From: a virus
Virus record (IMG/VR): IMGVR_UViG_3300036980_000573
Location: 1-24,751 of that record
DNA: 24,751 nt
Direction: 5' to 3' (one strand)
Shown here: piece by piece, positions 3,291-24,751 of the stretch
Position numbering within the stretch: position 1 is the first letter of the stretch
Layout: each line of letters opens with the position of its first letter
Position numbers and translations under genes: made by a program
The notes under the pieces: model-generated
Database searches by the model: none
The model's input: only the letters and a program-made list of their open reading frames with translations
Told to the model about the DNA's origin: nothing

Positions 3291-5623
3291 TGGCTTACAA
3301 ATATTCTCAATCTGACATTGACGCAGAACTAGCTAGAAGACAACCCTCTGCCGCACCAACTACTCAATCTTTTGAGCAATCTACCTTTACACCCGAAGCT
3401 ACTCCTCAATCTTTTGAATATTCTCAAGCCGATATTGATGCTGAACTAGCTAAAAGACAACCTAAAATGCCAATAGGTGGATTAAATGGAGCTGCCTTTA
3501 CAACTGCAACCAACCCTCTTGGCTTTGGCGATGAAATAAAAGCAGGAATTGCTGCTGGAGTTGCCAAATTATTTGGCGGTGCCGCTACTCAAAACATAGA
3601 TATTGGCGACCTTTACAGAGAAGCAAGAACTTCTGAAAGAGCTAAACTAGAAAAAGCTAGGCAAGACCGCCCTTCAATGACTGGCATGATTGAAACTCCT
3701 TCAAATTTAGCAAGGGGTGCAATAAAAGGTTTAGAACAAACTGGATCAGGTATTTATCAAACTGCTGCTGATTTTGGAGCTGATTTTTCAGGAGCAAAAG
3801 CAATATTAAGCAAAATTCGCCCTGATTTAAAAAATGAAATTGAAAGCCTTACTCCTCAAGATATTTCTAGTATTCTAGGCGAAAAAGCAGCTCAAGATTC
3901 AAAAGCAAGAGAACAAGAAGGTTTGGCGTATAAAACAGGAAGGTTTACTGGTAAAGTCGCCCCTTTTCTTGGAGTTGGCGGAGCAAGTAAAGTTGGTTTA
4001 GCTGTTGGTGGTGGATTAGGGGGAGGCACAGAACTAATGGAAGATTCTAGCGTTGGCAAAAGGTTAGGTTCTGCGGCAGTTGGTGCAGTTGCAGCTCCTG
4101 TTTTTGGGAAAGTTATTGAAGAAGCAGTTCCTGCCGCTCAATCACTAGGAATTGCTGTTGCTCAAGCTCCCAAAAAACTATTGCAAAAAATAATTGGAAT
4201 TGATCCAAAAGCAGTAAAAACATTTCAAGATTTAGGTATTGATCCAACTCTTGCCGATGTTTCTAAATCTGCTGGCTTACAGAACTTTATAAAAGACATT
4301 CCTGTTGCTGGAAAACCAATTACAGAAGCTTTGCAAAAGCAGGTAAATGATATTTCTGGGCAAATTCAAGGGGTTACTAAATCACAAGGTGGAACTTATG
4401 AAGAATCTGGAGCTATCATTAAGAAAGGAGCTGAAAATTATGTAAAAAAAACAGAAGACGCTATGGAAGGTCTTTATGGAGAGCTTGGGAATAGGATAGG
4501 AAATAGAGCTGACACTCCTCTTAATTCTACCCTAAAATATATAAATGAAGATGTTGGATTGCTAGATACAATGTCAATAAAGAAAGGCGGCACTTTACAG
4601 AATACAGTTGATACTATTAAAAATCTTACTGAAGATGCAACCCCTAATTATGAGAGGATTCGCAAATTACGCAGTAAAATTCGTAGAGAGAAAGCTACAA
4701 TGATAGGTGATGAAAGAAGGGAGATGGAAACTCTTTATGATAATATGACTAAAGATATGAAGGAATCTATTAAGATCAATGGAGGCGAAACTGCTCTTAA
4801 ATTATTCAATGCTGCCAATAAAGTTTACGCTAATCAAAAAACCTTTTTTAATGATACTCTTCAGCCTTTAATTGACGCAAAACTGCCAGAACAAGTATAT
4901 TCTTTAGCTACTCGCAATGTTAAATCGGGGGGAACAAGAATTTCCGAAATAATGAAATCTTTAGAAGAGCCTCAAAAAGATTTTTTGAGAGCTACATTTG
5001 TTAAGGATTTAGGTTTAGCTAAAAAAGGCGCGCAAGGTGCAGAGGCTGATTTATTTAGCCCTCAAAAATTCATGGCTGAATATTCTGTTCTTAAGAAAAA
5101 CGGCGCAGAAAAAGCAATTTTTACACCTGAACAAGTTACTGCATATAACCGCCTAAATAAGGTTGTAGAGCTTACTAAAAACACGGAACAAGCAGGAAAA
5201 TCAAATAAAATGTTGCAAATGGTTGGTCTTGGAACTGTTGGCTATGGAACTGGTCCATTAGGTTTAGCAGCTAGTGTTGGAATTGGAAGAGCTATTTCAT
5301 CAAAATTAATGGCAAACCCTAAATTCATTAATTGGGTTGCTGTTGCTTCCCAAGCAACGCCGAAAGAGTTACCTAAGCAATTTAACAGGCTTTCTGCAAT
5401 CACTGCTGCAAATCCCGAAATCAGAGAAGATGTTTTAAATCTTGTAGCAAATTTTGGAGCAAGTGATGCAAACGCAGAAGAACCAAATTTATCAGAAGAG
5501 CAGATTCGTCAGCAAATGTTAGATTCAAACCAACAAGATATGCTGCAAGGCTTGCCTCCTGTTTATACAAAAGAAGATTTACAAAATAATCCATCTAAAA
5601 TTAAAAAAAGGTATTACAGATAA
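3290..5623 (+). CDS. Large internal virion / DNA ejection protein (777 aa)
   Basis: The longest protein here. The N-terminus carries a duplicated 15-residue motif, YSQSDIDAELARRQP (5-19) and YSQADIDAELAKRQP (44-58), joined by a Thr/Ser/Gln linker. Next is NPLGFGDEIKAGI with DLYREARTSERAKLEKARQ (about 76-123), a block common at the N-terminus of large phage ejection or tail proteins. Gly/Ala-rich hydrophobic stretches near 220-275 and 655-680 could enter membranes. The middle is helical. The C-terminus is acidic then basic (KKRYYR). By size and position it resembles P22 gp16-class pilot proteins. No muralytic catalytic motif was seen. Confidence 0.6.
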   Translation: MAYKYSQSDIDAELARRQPSAAPTTQSFEQSTFTPEATPQSFEYSQADIDAELAKRQPKMPIGGLNGAAFTTATNPLGFGDEIKAGIAAGVAKLFGGAATQNIDIGDLYREARTSERAKLEKARQDRPSMTGMIETPSNLARGAIKGLEQTGSGIYQTAADFGADFSGAKAILSKIRPDLKNEIESLTPQDISSILGEKAAQDSKAREQEGLAYKTGRFTGKVAPFLGVGGASKVGLAVGGGLGGGTELMEDSSVGKRLGSAAVGAVAAPVFGKVIEEAVPAAQSLGIAVAQAPKKLLQKIIGIDPKAVKTFQDLGIDPTLADVSKSAGLQNFIKDIPVAGKPITEALQKQVNDISGQIQGVTKSQGGTYEESGAIIKKGAENYVKKTEDAMEGLYGELGNRIGNRADTPLNSTLKYINEDVGLLDTMSIKKGGTLQNTVDTIKNLTEDATPNYERIRKLRSKIRREKATMIGDERREMETLYDNMTKDMKESIKINGGETALKLFNAANKVYANQKTFFNDTLQPLIDAKLPEQVYSLATRNVKSGGTRISEIMKSLEEPQKDFLRATFVKDLGLAKKGAQGAEADLFSPQKFMAEYSVLKKNGAEKAIFTPEQVTAYNRLNKVVELTKNTEQAGKSNKMLQMVGLGTVGYGTGPLGLAASVGIGRAISSKLMANPKFINWVAVASQATPKELPKQFNRLSAITAANPEIREDVLNLVANFGASDANAEEPNLSEEQIRQQMLDSNQQDMLQGLPPVYTKEDLQNNPSKIKKRYYR
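3302..3463 (+). repeat. Duplicated N-terminal peptide motif, two copies
   Basis: Copies at 3302-3346 and 3419-3463 encode the same 15-residue motif with two conservative changes (S/A, R/K). Several silent differences separate the DNA copies, so the protein motif appears to be under selection. The linker also carries two related QSFE segments. Confidence 0.8.
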
Positions 5624-14598: not shown

Positions 14599-14693
14599 CA
14601 CTTCATTTCCTTTTTTCCTGAACTTTTAATGTCAAGGTAGGTGTGTTCAAGATGACAAAGGCGATTCTTGCACTTTCTTCTGTTGTCTTTCAT
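14598..14693 (-). CDS. Tiny basic Cys/His peptide (31 aa)
   Basis: ATG 14693 overlaps the ASCH gene stop by four bases (ATGA) and the frame ends at TGA 14600-14598, itself overlapping the next start. It has RRKCKNRLCHLEH near the N-terminus, so Cys8, Cys13, His14 and His17 could hold a metal. Both junctions are translationally coupled, which is the best evidence that it is a gene. The second ASCH copy at 24190 is also followed by a small Cys-rich gene with the same ATGA overlap. Confidence 0.5.
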   Translation of the reverse strand: MKDNRRKCKNRLCHLEHTYLDIKSSGKKEMK

Positions 14694-15235
14694 TTCACCA
14701 CCTCAAAAGAAATTACCCAAACCCAAGGATTAGCCTCAAACTTCTCTTCTGGTTTTTTGTGGGTTTCATCCCATAGCGCAGCAAAATCTTCTGTTGCCGT
14801 GATTCCGTCATGCTCGTAACAATCAGGCGTATTAACTAACCAATTTTCCGCCTTGCATCCCTCGGCAATCGCATCCTCCTCACTAATTCCCGCCAAGCGC
14901 TCCACTTTTATCTCTTTAATCAGCAGGGTTAGGCGTGAGTGTTCTTGCTTCATGTGTTGGGCTGGTTTCCATTTCCTTGTCCTGTCCCATATTTCAGAAA
15001 AATATCTAATTCCGTTAGATTCAGCATAAAAGACCTCTTTGCAAAAAATCTTTTGTCCTGCTTGGTAGGGGCATCTAATAACATCAAAGCAACCATCTTT
15101 TCTTACAATCGCAAGTTTTCCATTGATAAATTCTTGCGTTTCTACTGGCTGTGGCTTAATCACCTCCCTGAACATCACTTTTGATCCGTTTAGAATGGAT
15201 TGTACTTCTTGTTCGTTAAATATTTTTCCTTTCAT
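14690..15235 (-). CDS. ASCH-domain (PUA-like) protein, copy 1
   Basis: A 181-residue protein of the phage ASCH type. Visible elements: NEQEVQSILNGSKVMFREVIKP at the N-terminus, CPYQAGQKIFCKEVF (about 55-69), KWKPAQHMKQEHSRLTLLI (about 88-106), VERLAGISEEDAIAEG and the terminal EANPWVWVISFEVV. ASCH domains share the PUA-like RNA-binding fold, and the small YqfB branch hydrolyses N4-acetylcytidine. Phage members are uncharacterised, so RNA or nucleoside handling is inferred. It has an AGGGA ribosome site eight or so bases upstream and a CTAGGGGG in its leader. A mosaic paralogue is at 24190-24711. Confidence 0.75.
   Translation of the reverse strand: MKGKIFNEQEVQSILNGSKVMFREVIKPQPVETQEFINGKLAIVRKDGCFDVIRCPYQAGQKIFCKEVFYAESNGIRYFSEIWDRTRKWKPAQHMKQEHSRLTLLIKEIKVERLAGISEEDAIAEGCKAENWLVNTPDCYEHDGITATEDFAALWDETHKKPEEKFEANPWVWVISFEVVK
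14700..14765 (-). repeat. 66-bp exact repeat shared with the other ASCH gene (3' block)
   Basis: Bases 14700-14765 are identical to 24200-24265. They encode the shared C-terminal THKKPEEKFEANPWVWVISF region. No silent change separates them, pointing to recent duplication or gene conversion. Confidence 0.9.
14910..14974 (-). repeat. 65-bp exact repeat shared with the other ASCH gene (middle block)
   Basis: Bases 14910-14974 are identical to 24437-24501 and encode the KWKPAQHMKQEHSRLTLLI core. The sequence between the two exact blocks differs strongly between the copies. Confidence 0.9.
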
Positions 15236-15379
15236 AATTCCCTAAATTAAATTAATACAGCCCCCTAGAAGAATTTACCACTACCAGCAATTGCCAATAG
15301 CTTACCTGCTTTCACAAAGAACTTTACAGGCACTCCAAAGATATGATTTATATGTTTTGTTGATTTAGAAGATTAAAGT

Positions 15380-15745
15380 TCAGGGTTTTCGTATTTCTAA
15401 AAAAAGTTCAGGGTTTTCATGAAAATTCCCAATTAATATTCTACTTTCCCATGTATAAAATCCATCCCTTCTATACGATTCCCTTATTTCTTCATCACTA
15501 GCTATTTGACATTTATAAATATCATCTTGATTATTCTCTATCAAAACAAACCTACCACCCCCATAAGTCCTGCCATTAAACAAACCATCAAAGCGGTTTA
15601 GGGGGTCTTTTTCGTCTTTAAGGAAAATTTTAGTCTTTGCCAGATAGGTCTCAGGGCATAAATTATCGCAATCAATGGTTTCAATATAATCCTTGCCAAG
15701 AGTGAAGCTTTTACCTTTCTCGCAATCCCATTGGTCTAATTCCAA
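15380..15745 (-). CDS. Unidentified protein whose 5' end appears broken
   Basis: From TTG 15745 the frame gives 121 residues, with TYGGGRFVLIEN (about 60-71) and ESRILIGNFHENPELFLEI at the end. The frame stays open upstream through 19 more codons that look like protein (EIKLRLAEYKDKDFVGF) but offers no ATG, GTG or TTG. An ATG with GAGG just before it sits at 15798, in the wrong frame by one base. One missing base between that ATG and the body would explain this, giving a protein near 139 residues. Either a frameshift mutation, a sequence error, or use of TTG. Function unknown. Confidence 0.5.
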   Translation of the reverse strand: MELDQWDCEKGKSFTLGKDYIETIDCDNLCPETYLAKTKIFLKDEKDPLNRFDGLFNGRTYGGGRFVLIENNQDDIYKCQIASDEEIRESYRRDGFYTWESRILIGNFHENPELFLEIRKP

Positions 15746-15814
15746 AAACCCTACAAAGTCTTTGTCTTTGTATTCTGCTAATCTTAATTTGATTTCATAA
15801 CCTCATTAAATTTA

Positions 15815-15921
15815 CATTATTATAAAACACCCGCAGCCAAGTAAGTTTGTACTTCTCTTTTTTAAAAGACTGCGGATGTTCCCCCTAGAGTAAATAATAC
15901 CACTTCTTTAACTAGGGGGTG
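15815..15921 (-). ncRNA. Candidate structured small RNA or attenuating leader
   Basis: Starting about seven bases after a promoter -10 box, the - strand RNA can fold into two domains. Domain 1 is CCCCCUAG (15919-15912) with CUAGGGGG (15888-15881), loop 23 nt. Domain 2 is closed by ACAUCCGCAG (15879-15870) with CUGCGGGUGU (15836-15827), ten pairs with one U-G. Inside are UCUUU/AAAGA and AAGUA/UACUU hairpins, making a three-way junction. UUUUAU follows. The wobble pair exists only in the - strand RNA; on + it is a C-A mismatch. It lies between genes and is not coding in any frame of note. Folding was done by eye. Confidence 0.45.
15820..15879 (-). terminator. GC-rich helix plus short U-run, possible terminator
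   Basis: The 10-bp helix closing the three-way junction is followed on the - strand by UUUUAUAAUAAU. The helix is GC-rich, but the U-run is short and the enclosed loop is large (33 nt), so efficiency is uncertain. If it works, transcripts from the promoter at 15928-15955 would end after about 100 nt. Confidence 0.35.
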
Positions 15922-15927
15922 AAAACT

Positions 15928-15959
15928 ATTATCAAGGTTAATTCTTATTAGTCAATAGA
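15928..15959 (-). promoter_or_regulatory. Sigma70-type promoter A with duplicated 20-bp block
   Basis: Leftward reading gives TTGACT (15955-15950), a 16-bp spacer and GATAAT (15933-15928). Each box is one base off consensus. The -35 side lies in AATTCTTATTAGTCAATAGA (15940-15959), identical to 22078-22097 at the other early promoter. It contains a TATT-N4-AATA dyad that may bind a regulator. Confidence 0.6.
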
Positions 15960-21703: not shown

Positions 21704-22027
21704 CTACCCCTTTATTTTTAATATTCGCCTAACTTTCCGAGCATTAATCTTAGGATCTTTTAAAATCCCAATTTTAATATCAGTAGCAATTAGATTGTAA
21801 GCTCCTAAAAATTCATCAAGGCTAACCTTAGCTCCTTGAGTTTTTAGATAGCCTACTATTTTTACAACATCTTCGAGCTTGATCTGGTTAAACTCAAAGC
21901 AAGCGCAAGAGACGCTGGCTAATTTAATGTTAGTAGCTTTTGCAACATTAGTTTTACTTGATTTTATTTTTAGCAAAGTTTCTGTTAGCAATTCTCCAAA
22001 CTGATTGTAAGGTCTTTTTTTACGCAT
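21704..22027 (-). CDS. Small helix-turn-helix regulator (XRE/Cro-like)
   Basis: Start chosen at ATG 22027 (107 residues). A GTG at 22063 is in frame but lies at the promoter. Residues about 8-70 follow the XRE layout: FGELLTETLLKIKSSKTN, VAKATNIKLASVSCAC (helices 2 and 3), then LEDVVKIVGYLKTQG. The tail is basic (NARKVRRILKIK). It is the first gene behind promoter B, opposite the divergent endolysin gene, a typical spot for an autoregulating phage repressor. The recognition helix is somewhat atypical, so DNA binding is likely but not certain. Confidence 0.6.
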   Translation of the reverse strand: MRKKRPYNQFGELLTETLLKIKSSKTNVAKATNIKLASVSCACFEFNQIKLEDVVKIVGYLKTQGAKVSLDEFLGAYNLIATDIKIGILKDPKINARKVRRILKIKG

Positions 22028-22065
22028 TTGATTTGTTATTGATAAAAAGTTAATTAACGACACTC

Positions 22066-22097
22066 AATATAAAGATAAATTCTTATTAGTCAATAGA
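22066..22097 (-). promoter_or_regulatory. Sigma70-type early promoter B with duplicated 20-bp block
   Basis: Leftward: TTGACT (22093-22088), 16-bp spacer, TATATT (22071-22066), about 39 bases before the regulator ATG. The block AATTCTTATTAGTCAATAGA (22078-22097) is identical to that at promoter A. The predicted start near 22059 leaves a 30-base leader. It should drive regulator, Sak4-like, nuclease and SSB genes. Confidence 0.65.
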
Positions 22098-24089: not shown

Positions 24090-24193
24090 TGTTGTTCAAA
24101 ACATTCCTCACAGCATTCCTTTCCGTCTAATTCAGCACAGTTGAAGTCGCCGTCTTTTTGGTTGTTGCAGATAGTGCAGATGTAGATACTCAT
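24065..24193 (-). CDS. Small zinc-ribbon-like protein (42 aa)
   Basis: ATG 24193 overlaps the ASCH copy 2 stop by four bases (ATGA). The 42 residues hold two Cys pairs, YICTIC (Cys6, Cys9) and CCEEC (Cys27/28, Cys31), spaced as in a zinc ribbon, with acidic residues throughout. Small phage proteins with 'C-x2-C-N-N-x-K-D-G-D-F' and a C-terminal CxxC are common near early genes. A nucleic-acid or protein-binding zinc knuckle is likely. Confidence 0.6.
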   Translation of the reverse strand: MSIYICTICNNQKDGDFNCAELDGKECCEECFEQQLTEENDY

Positions 24194-24711
24194 TTCATTA
24201 CCTCAAAAGAAATTACCCAAACCCAAGGATTAGCCTCAAACTTCTCTTCTGGTTTTTTGTGGGTTGCGTTCCAAGCGTGCTTAAATTCTTCGCCGTGAAT
24301 ATAGCAAAAATATTGAGAAAAACACGCATCAATTGGGCTTTTATCTTTTTTGCGCGGCAAACATGCGCAGCGGTCTAAATATTTACCCTCCTTAATCGCA
24401 TCCTCCTCACTAATATCACCAAGCTTCTCAACCCTAATCTCTTTAATCAGCAGGGTTAGGCGTGAGTGTTCTTGCTTCATGTGTTGGGCTGGTTTCCATT
24501 TAGAAACTATGTTGGCTGGCGAATTGTCGGCTTTGTAAACCAAGCCATCGTCCCAAATCTCGAAAGTTTCTTTGCAAAAAATCTTTTGTCCTACTTGATA
24601 GGGGCATCTTTCGCGAGATGAATCTTTGTGCTTAATCACCTCCCTAAACATTGTTTTTGATCCGTTTAGAATGCTTTGCACTTCTTGTGCGTTAAATATT
24701 TTACCTTTCAT
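24190..24711 (-). CDS. ASCH-domain (PUA-like) protein, copy 2
   Basis: A 173-residue paralogue of the gene at 14690. It shares QEVQSILNGSK-MFREVIK, CPYQVGQKIFCKETF, KWKPAQHMKQEHSRLTLLI, ISEEDAI-EG and the EANPWVWVISFEV end. The insert after FREVIK is shorter, and the segment between DAIKEG and FKHAWN is different, with CACLPRKKDK and CFSQYFCYIHGEEF, so extra Cys may bind metal. Upstream on this strand is TTATAA-rich DNA running to the window edge. RNA/nucleoside-related function is inferred from the fold. Confidence 0.75.
   Translation of the reverse strand: MKGKIFNAQEVQSILNGSKTMFREVIKHKDSSRERCPYQVGQKIFCKETFEIWDDGLVYKADNSPANIVSKWKPAQHMKQEHSRLTLLIKEIRVEKLGDISEEDAIKEGKYLDRCACLPRKKDKSPIDACFSQYFCYIHGEEFKHAWNATHKKPEEKFEANPWVWVISFEVMK
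24200..24501 (-). repeat. ASCH copy 2 segments identical to copy 1
   Basis: Bases 24200-24265 equal 14700-14765 and 24437-24501 equal 14910-14974, without a mismatch. The 171 bases between are largely unalike, giving a mosaic. Confidence 0.9.
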
Positions 24712-24751
24712 TTCTGATTTATAATAAAGTTACTATGGTTTAGTCTTAATC

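Follow-up and report, generated by a model that had tools for sequence, protein, structure and literature searches.

The locus studied here raises the question of what is made from a minus-strand promoter behind which about 105 bases contain no convincing gene. The preliminary description proposed a small RNA with a three-way junction, either free or acting as a leader that controls the damaged gene at 15380. The window (the whole stretch of DNA analyzed) is the 24,751-nt IMG/VR virus record IMGVR_UViG_3300036980_000573, positions 1 to 24,751, and contains podovirus-like genes, e.g. those encoding a head-closure Hc3 protein and a DNA transfer protein. Among its minus-strand genes between 22063 and 16012 are those for a Sak4-like annealing protein and a single-strand binding protein, and the promoter of the RNA (15955-15928) lies after the last gene of this series.

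The RNA is present in five related phage records, one copy in each: the window, L006, L039, L040 and L042. L006, which is syntenic with the window and 92% identical to it over the second hairpin of the RNA (hairpin II), was retrieved by searches with window proteins, and the other three by a search with the alignment of the early regulator (see below). The RNA is identical in L039 and L042, and L040 shares their core but differs from them in its tail and in its promoter variant; three distinct cores are represented (window; L039/L040/L042; L006). The covariance model of hairpin II finds all five records at E 2e-20 or better among the 23 records searched, four of the five having contributed to, or being equal to, sequences of the model, and elsewhere in the 23 records it finds nothing better than E 0.02. 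In the helix pattern scan of viral contigs L006 was the sole true relative, the remaining matches being due to chance; viral scans with the 16012 protein, the 15380 protein and the promoter 17-mer gave no matches, and among genome contigs the scan turned up one remote, unrelated contig, which lacks the RNA.

Transcription is predicted to start at about 15921, and two hairpins of 8 bp and 13 bp follow, with 0 nt between them. Hairpin I (15881..15919, minus strand, as all features of the RNA) forms the predicted 5' end of the transcript and is closed by the 8-bp pair CCCCCTAG/CTAGGGGG (15912-15919 and 15881-15888). Hairpin II (15826..15880) consists of a 13-bp outer helix (15868-15880 with 15826-15838), the 10-nt internal loop UUUUAAAAAA (15858-15867) and an inner hairpin (15839-15857) with the 3' strand CUUACUU. 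In all phages hairpin I starts 7-9 nt past the -10 box, no more than about 2 nt from the predicted 5' end. A -10-like TATTAT preceded by TGG is located at 15894..15899, that is, at about +23 to +28 if the start is 15921; it occurs at the same place in L039, L040 and L042 and is absent in L006. The helices of the preliminary description are indeed present, namely the 8-bp pair and the helix ACATCCGCAG/CTGCGGGTGT with its U-G pair, followed by TTTTAT, but the zero spacer between the two, observed in all four distinct records folded, had been missed.

The 108-nt core has a minimum free energy (MFE) of -38.4 kcal/mol (z = -5.8, 0 of 200 shuffles), and the region 15800-15930, for which a fold check had been proposed, has a z-score of -3.66 as minus-strand RNA and of -2.62 as plus-strand RNA. 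Taken alone, the window's hairpin I is only moderately unusual compared with its own shuffles (3%). The minus strand folds better than the plus strand by 10-12 kcal/mol in four of the four phages tested, in agreement with the earlier strand argument, which was based on a U-G pair possible only in the minus-strand RNA. Moreover, when both strands of the window were scanned in 100-nt frames, a stable pair of abutting hairpins was seen at the RNA locus only (three overlapping frames of 8217 per strand). The 8-nt motif CCCCCTAG/CTAGGGGG occurs three times in the window versus 0.13 expected; the copy of CTAGGGGG at 15261 was considered as a pairing partner and rejected, since its neighborhood is shared with L006, whose hairpin I is different, and is thus treated as a coincidence.

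The three-way junction, comprising two 5-bp hairpins enclosed by the 10-bp helix, can be drawn in the window, but at a cost of about 1.3 kcal/mol relative to the MFE, and one of its arms is not conserved: the second 5-bp hairpin, AAGUA/UACUU, is impossible in L006 and L039/L040, and the junction is not among the near-optimal folds listed for L006. It was discarded as the main fold. RNAalifold, applied blind to the structure, gives instead the same hairpin II in four phages, with the 13-bp helix, the 10-nt internal loop and the inner hairpin; the outer helix has no broken pair, and the changes within hairpin II are one compensatory and two one-sided pair-keeping ones.

Pairing-preserving changes among the related phages, proposed earlier as a check of the fold, were found in both hairpins. 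Between the window and L040 there are eight substitutions in 21 base pairs, and 21 of 21 pairs are retained, three of them by double changes (C-G to A-U, C-G to U-A and G-C to A-U), while random placement of eight substitutions retains all pairs in 7e-5 of trials. Hairpin I of L039/L040 has two compensatory pairs, both dependent on a structural alignment that needs a one-base insertion in L039/L040, MAFFT having placed these columns differently. Hairpin I of L006 resembles none of the others in sequence, yet it too reaches exactly from the predicted start to hairpin II, which it abuts, and a fraction of 0.0002 of its shuffles and three of 6532 genome windows are as stable. Invariant across the phages are the internal loop of hairpin II and the strand CUUACUU, and the loop of hairpin I is retained in the window and L039/L040 and differs in L006. 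With this covariation and the regulated promoter twin described below, the proposal that the minus strand encodes a structured RNA with a separate promoter is upheld: the RNA is almost certainly a real one, and, by comparison of the sequences, its fold, its strand and the co-varying promoter box can be regarded as established.

The RNA is preceded by a sigma-70-type promoter TTGACT-16-GATAAT (15928..15955, minus strand), and the promoter layout is the same in L006, L039, L040 and L042. The promoter of the preliminary description was borne out, with 10 of 12 consensus matches, but its twin at the early promoter at 22094 had been overlooked. The two share the box ATTGACTAATAAGAATT (15940..15956, minus strand), an exact 17-mer with the second copy at 22094, and the early-promoter region with the box (22068..22097, minus strand) is 90% identical to the promoter region of the RNA. 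L039 and L042 carry TTGCATAATAAGAATT at both the RNA and the early promoter, L040 keeps AATAAGAATTGATC at both, and L006 has TTAACTAAAT at both, these being its only two occurrences in 55.5 kb.

The protein adjoining the early promoter shares 84-91% identity with its window counterpart where the box is of the window type, and 65-69% where it is of the second (L006) type, the putative helix-turn-helix being among the parts that differ between the regulator classes. In the window this putative, lambda-repressor-like early regulator is encoded at 21704..22063 (minus strand). The weak match of the L006 homologue to the Pfam family HTH_3 and a low-confidence model, which resembles 434 Cro, C proteins and HipB, suggest that it is a helix-turn-helix protein, and it is thought to act on both boxes. 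Judged by the box, which co-varies with the adjacent regulator, the promoter of the RNA is regulated.

The region downstream of the RNA differs between the phages. In the window it holds a decayed ORF (15380..15799, minus strand), an open frame without an ATG or GTG start and with TTG at 15745 only; no relative and no Pfam family match were found for it, and it is absent from all four other phage records. In L006, L039 and L040 the RNA is followed by a non-coding stretch without a convincing ORF, and the corresponding region of L042 is 99.9% identical to that of L039. Module C (about 165 nt), with a long stalk including compensatory pairs, recurs in conserved form in L006, L039 and L040, and other modules downstream of the RNA in the relatives are tRNA-like. 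Between the RNA and the first module there is no strong promoter in L040 or L006; in L039 there is a 9/12 promoter-like site with its TATAAT overlapping the RNA tail, so the L039 modules might have their own start. Since the relatives have no such gene and have non-coding modules instead, a leader specific to gene 15380, one of the two earlier readings, is unlikely and was set aside. Given this variable downstream content, with modules in the relatives and ORF 15380 in the window, what the RNA stands in front of is a hypervariable cargo region and not a single gene.

Several further features of this region and its surroundings were observed. The non-coding modules C and D (L006 7188-7460; L039 11545-11890; L040 16890-17075) are not in Rfam; their long closing stalks are GGTCGCAATC..GATTGCGAC and GGCAACGCTG..CAGCGTTGC, and module D of L039 surrounds a degenerate tRNA. 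A conserved tRNA-like element with a CCA end and a T-arm-like hairpin is found at L006 6981-7133, L004 about 3780-3942 and L011 4208-4308; it has an enlarged anticodon-like arm, the loop of which contains the palindrome GGTCGACC, is not called a tRNA by ARAGORN, and in L006 and L004 has a 66-nt insert in the variable region. The near-invariant motif AGTTAGCCTTCTGTAAAAAGGC stands behind otherwise different RNA bodies in nine records (L004 5330, L006 6922, L008 3360, L009 5213, L011 4916, L013 13488, L014 4250, L017 3698 and L040 5467). Its hairpin GCCUU-CUGUAAA-AAGGC resembles the anticodon arm of tRNA-Tyr(GUA) and, as a guess, may perhaps be a decoy for anticodon nucleases.

In the window, the tandem direct repeat AAAGTTCAGGGTTTTC at 15375-15418, at the 3' end of ORF 15380, is a sign of rearrangement at the cargo locus. 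The window also encodes two paralogous phrog_874 proteins, 55% identical (14690-15235 and 24190-24711), and its last 40 bases (24712-24751), upstream of the 24711 gene, are 82% like L006 7142-7181, a promoter-like sequence (TTTACA-17-TATTAT) within the non-coding cassette of that phage. In more distant phages, long inverted repeats after VRR-like nuclease genes (L018 10374-10440; L007 7398-7480) occupy the corresponding place and are perhaps analogous RNAs.

As most copies of the RNA introduce a variable region rich in other structured non-coding RNAs, the RNA probably controls transcription of this region. We infer that the element is, with fair probability, a 5' leader acting in cis on its own transcript, a role in keeping with where it lies, with its conserved fold and with the changing content downstream. 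The promoter, controlled by the early regulator, would start minus-strand transcription at about 15921, and the first ~95 nt would fold into two hairpins stacked end to end. This leader would head the hypervariable accessory region, which in the relatives begins with untranslated structured RNAs. The tandem hairpins might then bind the elongating RNA polymerase, so that terminators in the untranslated cargo would be read through, as with the put RNA of phage HK022. By this analogy, put-like antitermination is the mechanism we tentatively favor; against it count the small number of distinct RNA cores (only three), the absence of the -10-like site in L006, and the decayed ORF, rather than non-coding RNA, downstream in the window. 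The complete scheme, in which a protein-independent, put-built antiterminator heads an operon of untranslated RNAs under the early regulator, and the promoter and hairpin I are swapped together with the regulator class, is speculative and rather improbable as a whole.

Among the alternatives, the leader may merely stabilize its transcript, with hairpin I shielding the 5' end from decay of the RNase E/RppH type and hairpin II protecting the RNA or marking a processing site, so that the downstream non-coding RNAs survive with no action on the polymerase. The location of hairpin I, at most about 2 nt from the predicted 5' end in all phages, its retention in L006 as a structure but not as a sequence, and the long closing stalk of module C, which resembles a processing stem, agree with this reading; it leaves unexplained, however, the invariant internal loop and CUUACUU of hairpin II, as well as the zero spacer and the hairpin I loop kept in the window and L039/L040, and we consider it somewhat unlikely.

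Similarly doubtful is a free small RNA of about 95-105 nt, whose working part, hairpin II with its conserved internal loop, would bind a host protein or RNA in trans, and which would be protected by hairpin I and released by processing or by weak termination past UUUU. Such an RNA would account for the separate promoter, the lack of variation in the internal loop and inner strand across five records, and the UUUU(A) that comes next in the window, L006 and L039. However, helix II scores about -50 on the d'Aubenton-Carafa scale, on which terminators are above 0, and in L040 the U-run is not retained, the tail after hairpin II being UGUUUAAUAAU only, with no more than UUU. For these two reasons hairpin II was rejected as an intrinsic terminator, and the earlier suggestion of a free RNA, if this is to be a terminated one, is unlikely, though the RNA may be cut out of a longer transcript; moreover, conservation of a target could not be shown, as the loop of hairpin I differs in L006.

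An attenuator or riboswitch controlling gene 15380 or the later gene 14690 is highly improbable: the RNA lies upstream of both genes, and two-hairpin leaders can switch, but no alternative pairing was found, no Rfam riboswitch matches even at loose thresholds, and the same RNA is followed by different content in the relatives, 15380 being missing from them and 14690 from L039/L040. It is very unlikely that the inverted repeats are a DNA-level element (a recombination or replication site) only resembling RNA hairpins, as their place at a boundary of promoter-class and cargo exchange between phages might suggest, given the U-G pairs possible on one strand only, the poorer folding of the opposite strand in four phages and the fixed spacing to the regulated promoter.

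Comparison with known families leaves the RNA as a real, previously uncatalogued one. No Rfam 15 family reaches its gathering cut-off for it, in line with the preliminary remark that no named family has this layout, and the matches in the relatives are only ordinary tRNAs and one DUF3800-IX, all elsewhere. GOLLD and ROOL, large phage-associated RNAs, are alike in being structured phage RNAs, and the relatives here have tRNA-like parts nearby; however, GOLLD/ROOL is one giant RNA, whereas the relatives have small separate modules. The best score of GOLLD (RF02032) is 12.5 bits against a cut-off of 150 bits, with no matches in the relatives, and the L006 cassette has no match at E<=1. Whatever the mechanism, the RNA flags a variable locus of this uncultured phage group, at which the relatives hold several structured non-coding RNAs (including tRNA-like ones) that Rfam does not match, and the promoter box and the covariance model are handles for finding more.

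The OOP and 6S/PR' RNAs of phage lambda are terminated phage small RNAs and share with the element a short transcript, a dedicated phage promoter and two hairpins, but here the second hairpin does not resemble a terminator, and in the relatives the RNA is followed by non-coding modules. Among leaders, the closest in architecture is the put RNA of HK022, a factor-independent antiterminator that suppresses termination through the beta' zinc-binding domain, with one put element of ~70 nt per early promoter. It has two stem-loops just downstream of PL, which meet at G35/G36, and putL contains a -10-like sequence at +23 to +28 (PMC9378689). The element described here likewise has two stem-loops with almost no spacer (0 nt in four records) just downstream of a promoter, its start site being predicted, and TATTAT stands at the distance of the putL -10-like site in the window, L039, L040 and L042, but is absent in L006.

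The differences from put are that the element is longer (~95-115 nt versus ~70 nt) and lies at an accessory region, unlike put in the main early operon, and that the leader of the window early promoter at 22094 has no such hairpins, whereas HK022 has a copy at each early promoter. At blastn sensitivity there was no match in 50,697 phage records including that of HK022, though a short diverged element could escape such a search, and when put was sought in HK022 itself, to serve as a reference, no candidate stood out. We do not assign the element to put. To our knowledge, RNA elements that modify RNA polymerase without the help of a protein are few; should the put-like reading be correct, this class would be extended beyond the lambdoid coliphages by a compact RNA of two covarying, abutting hairpins.
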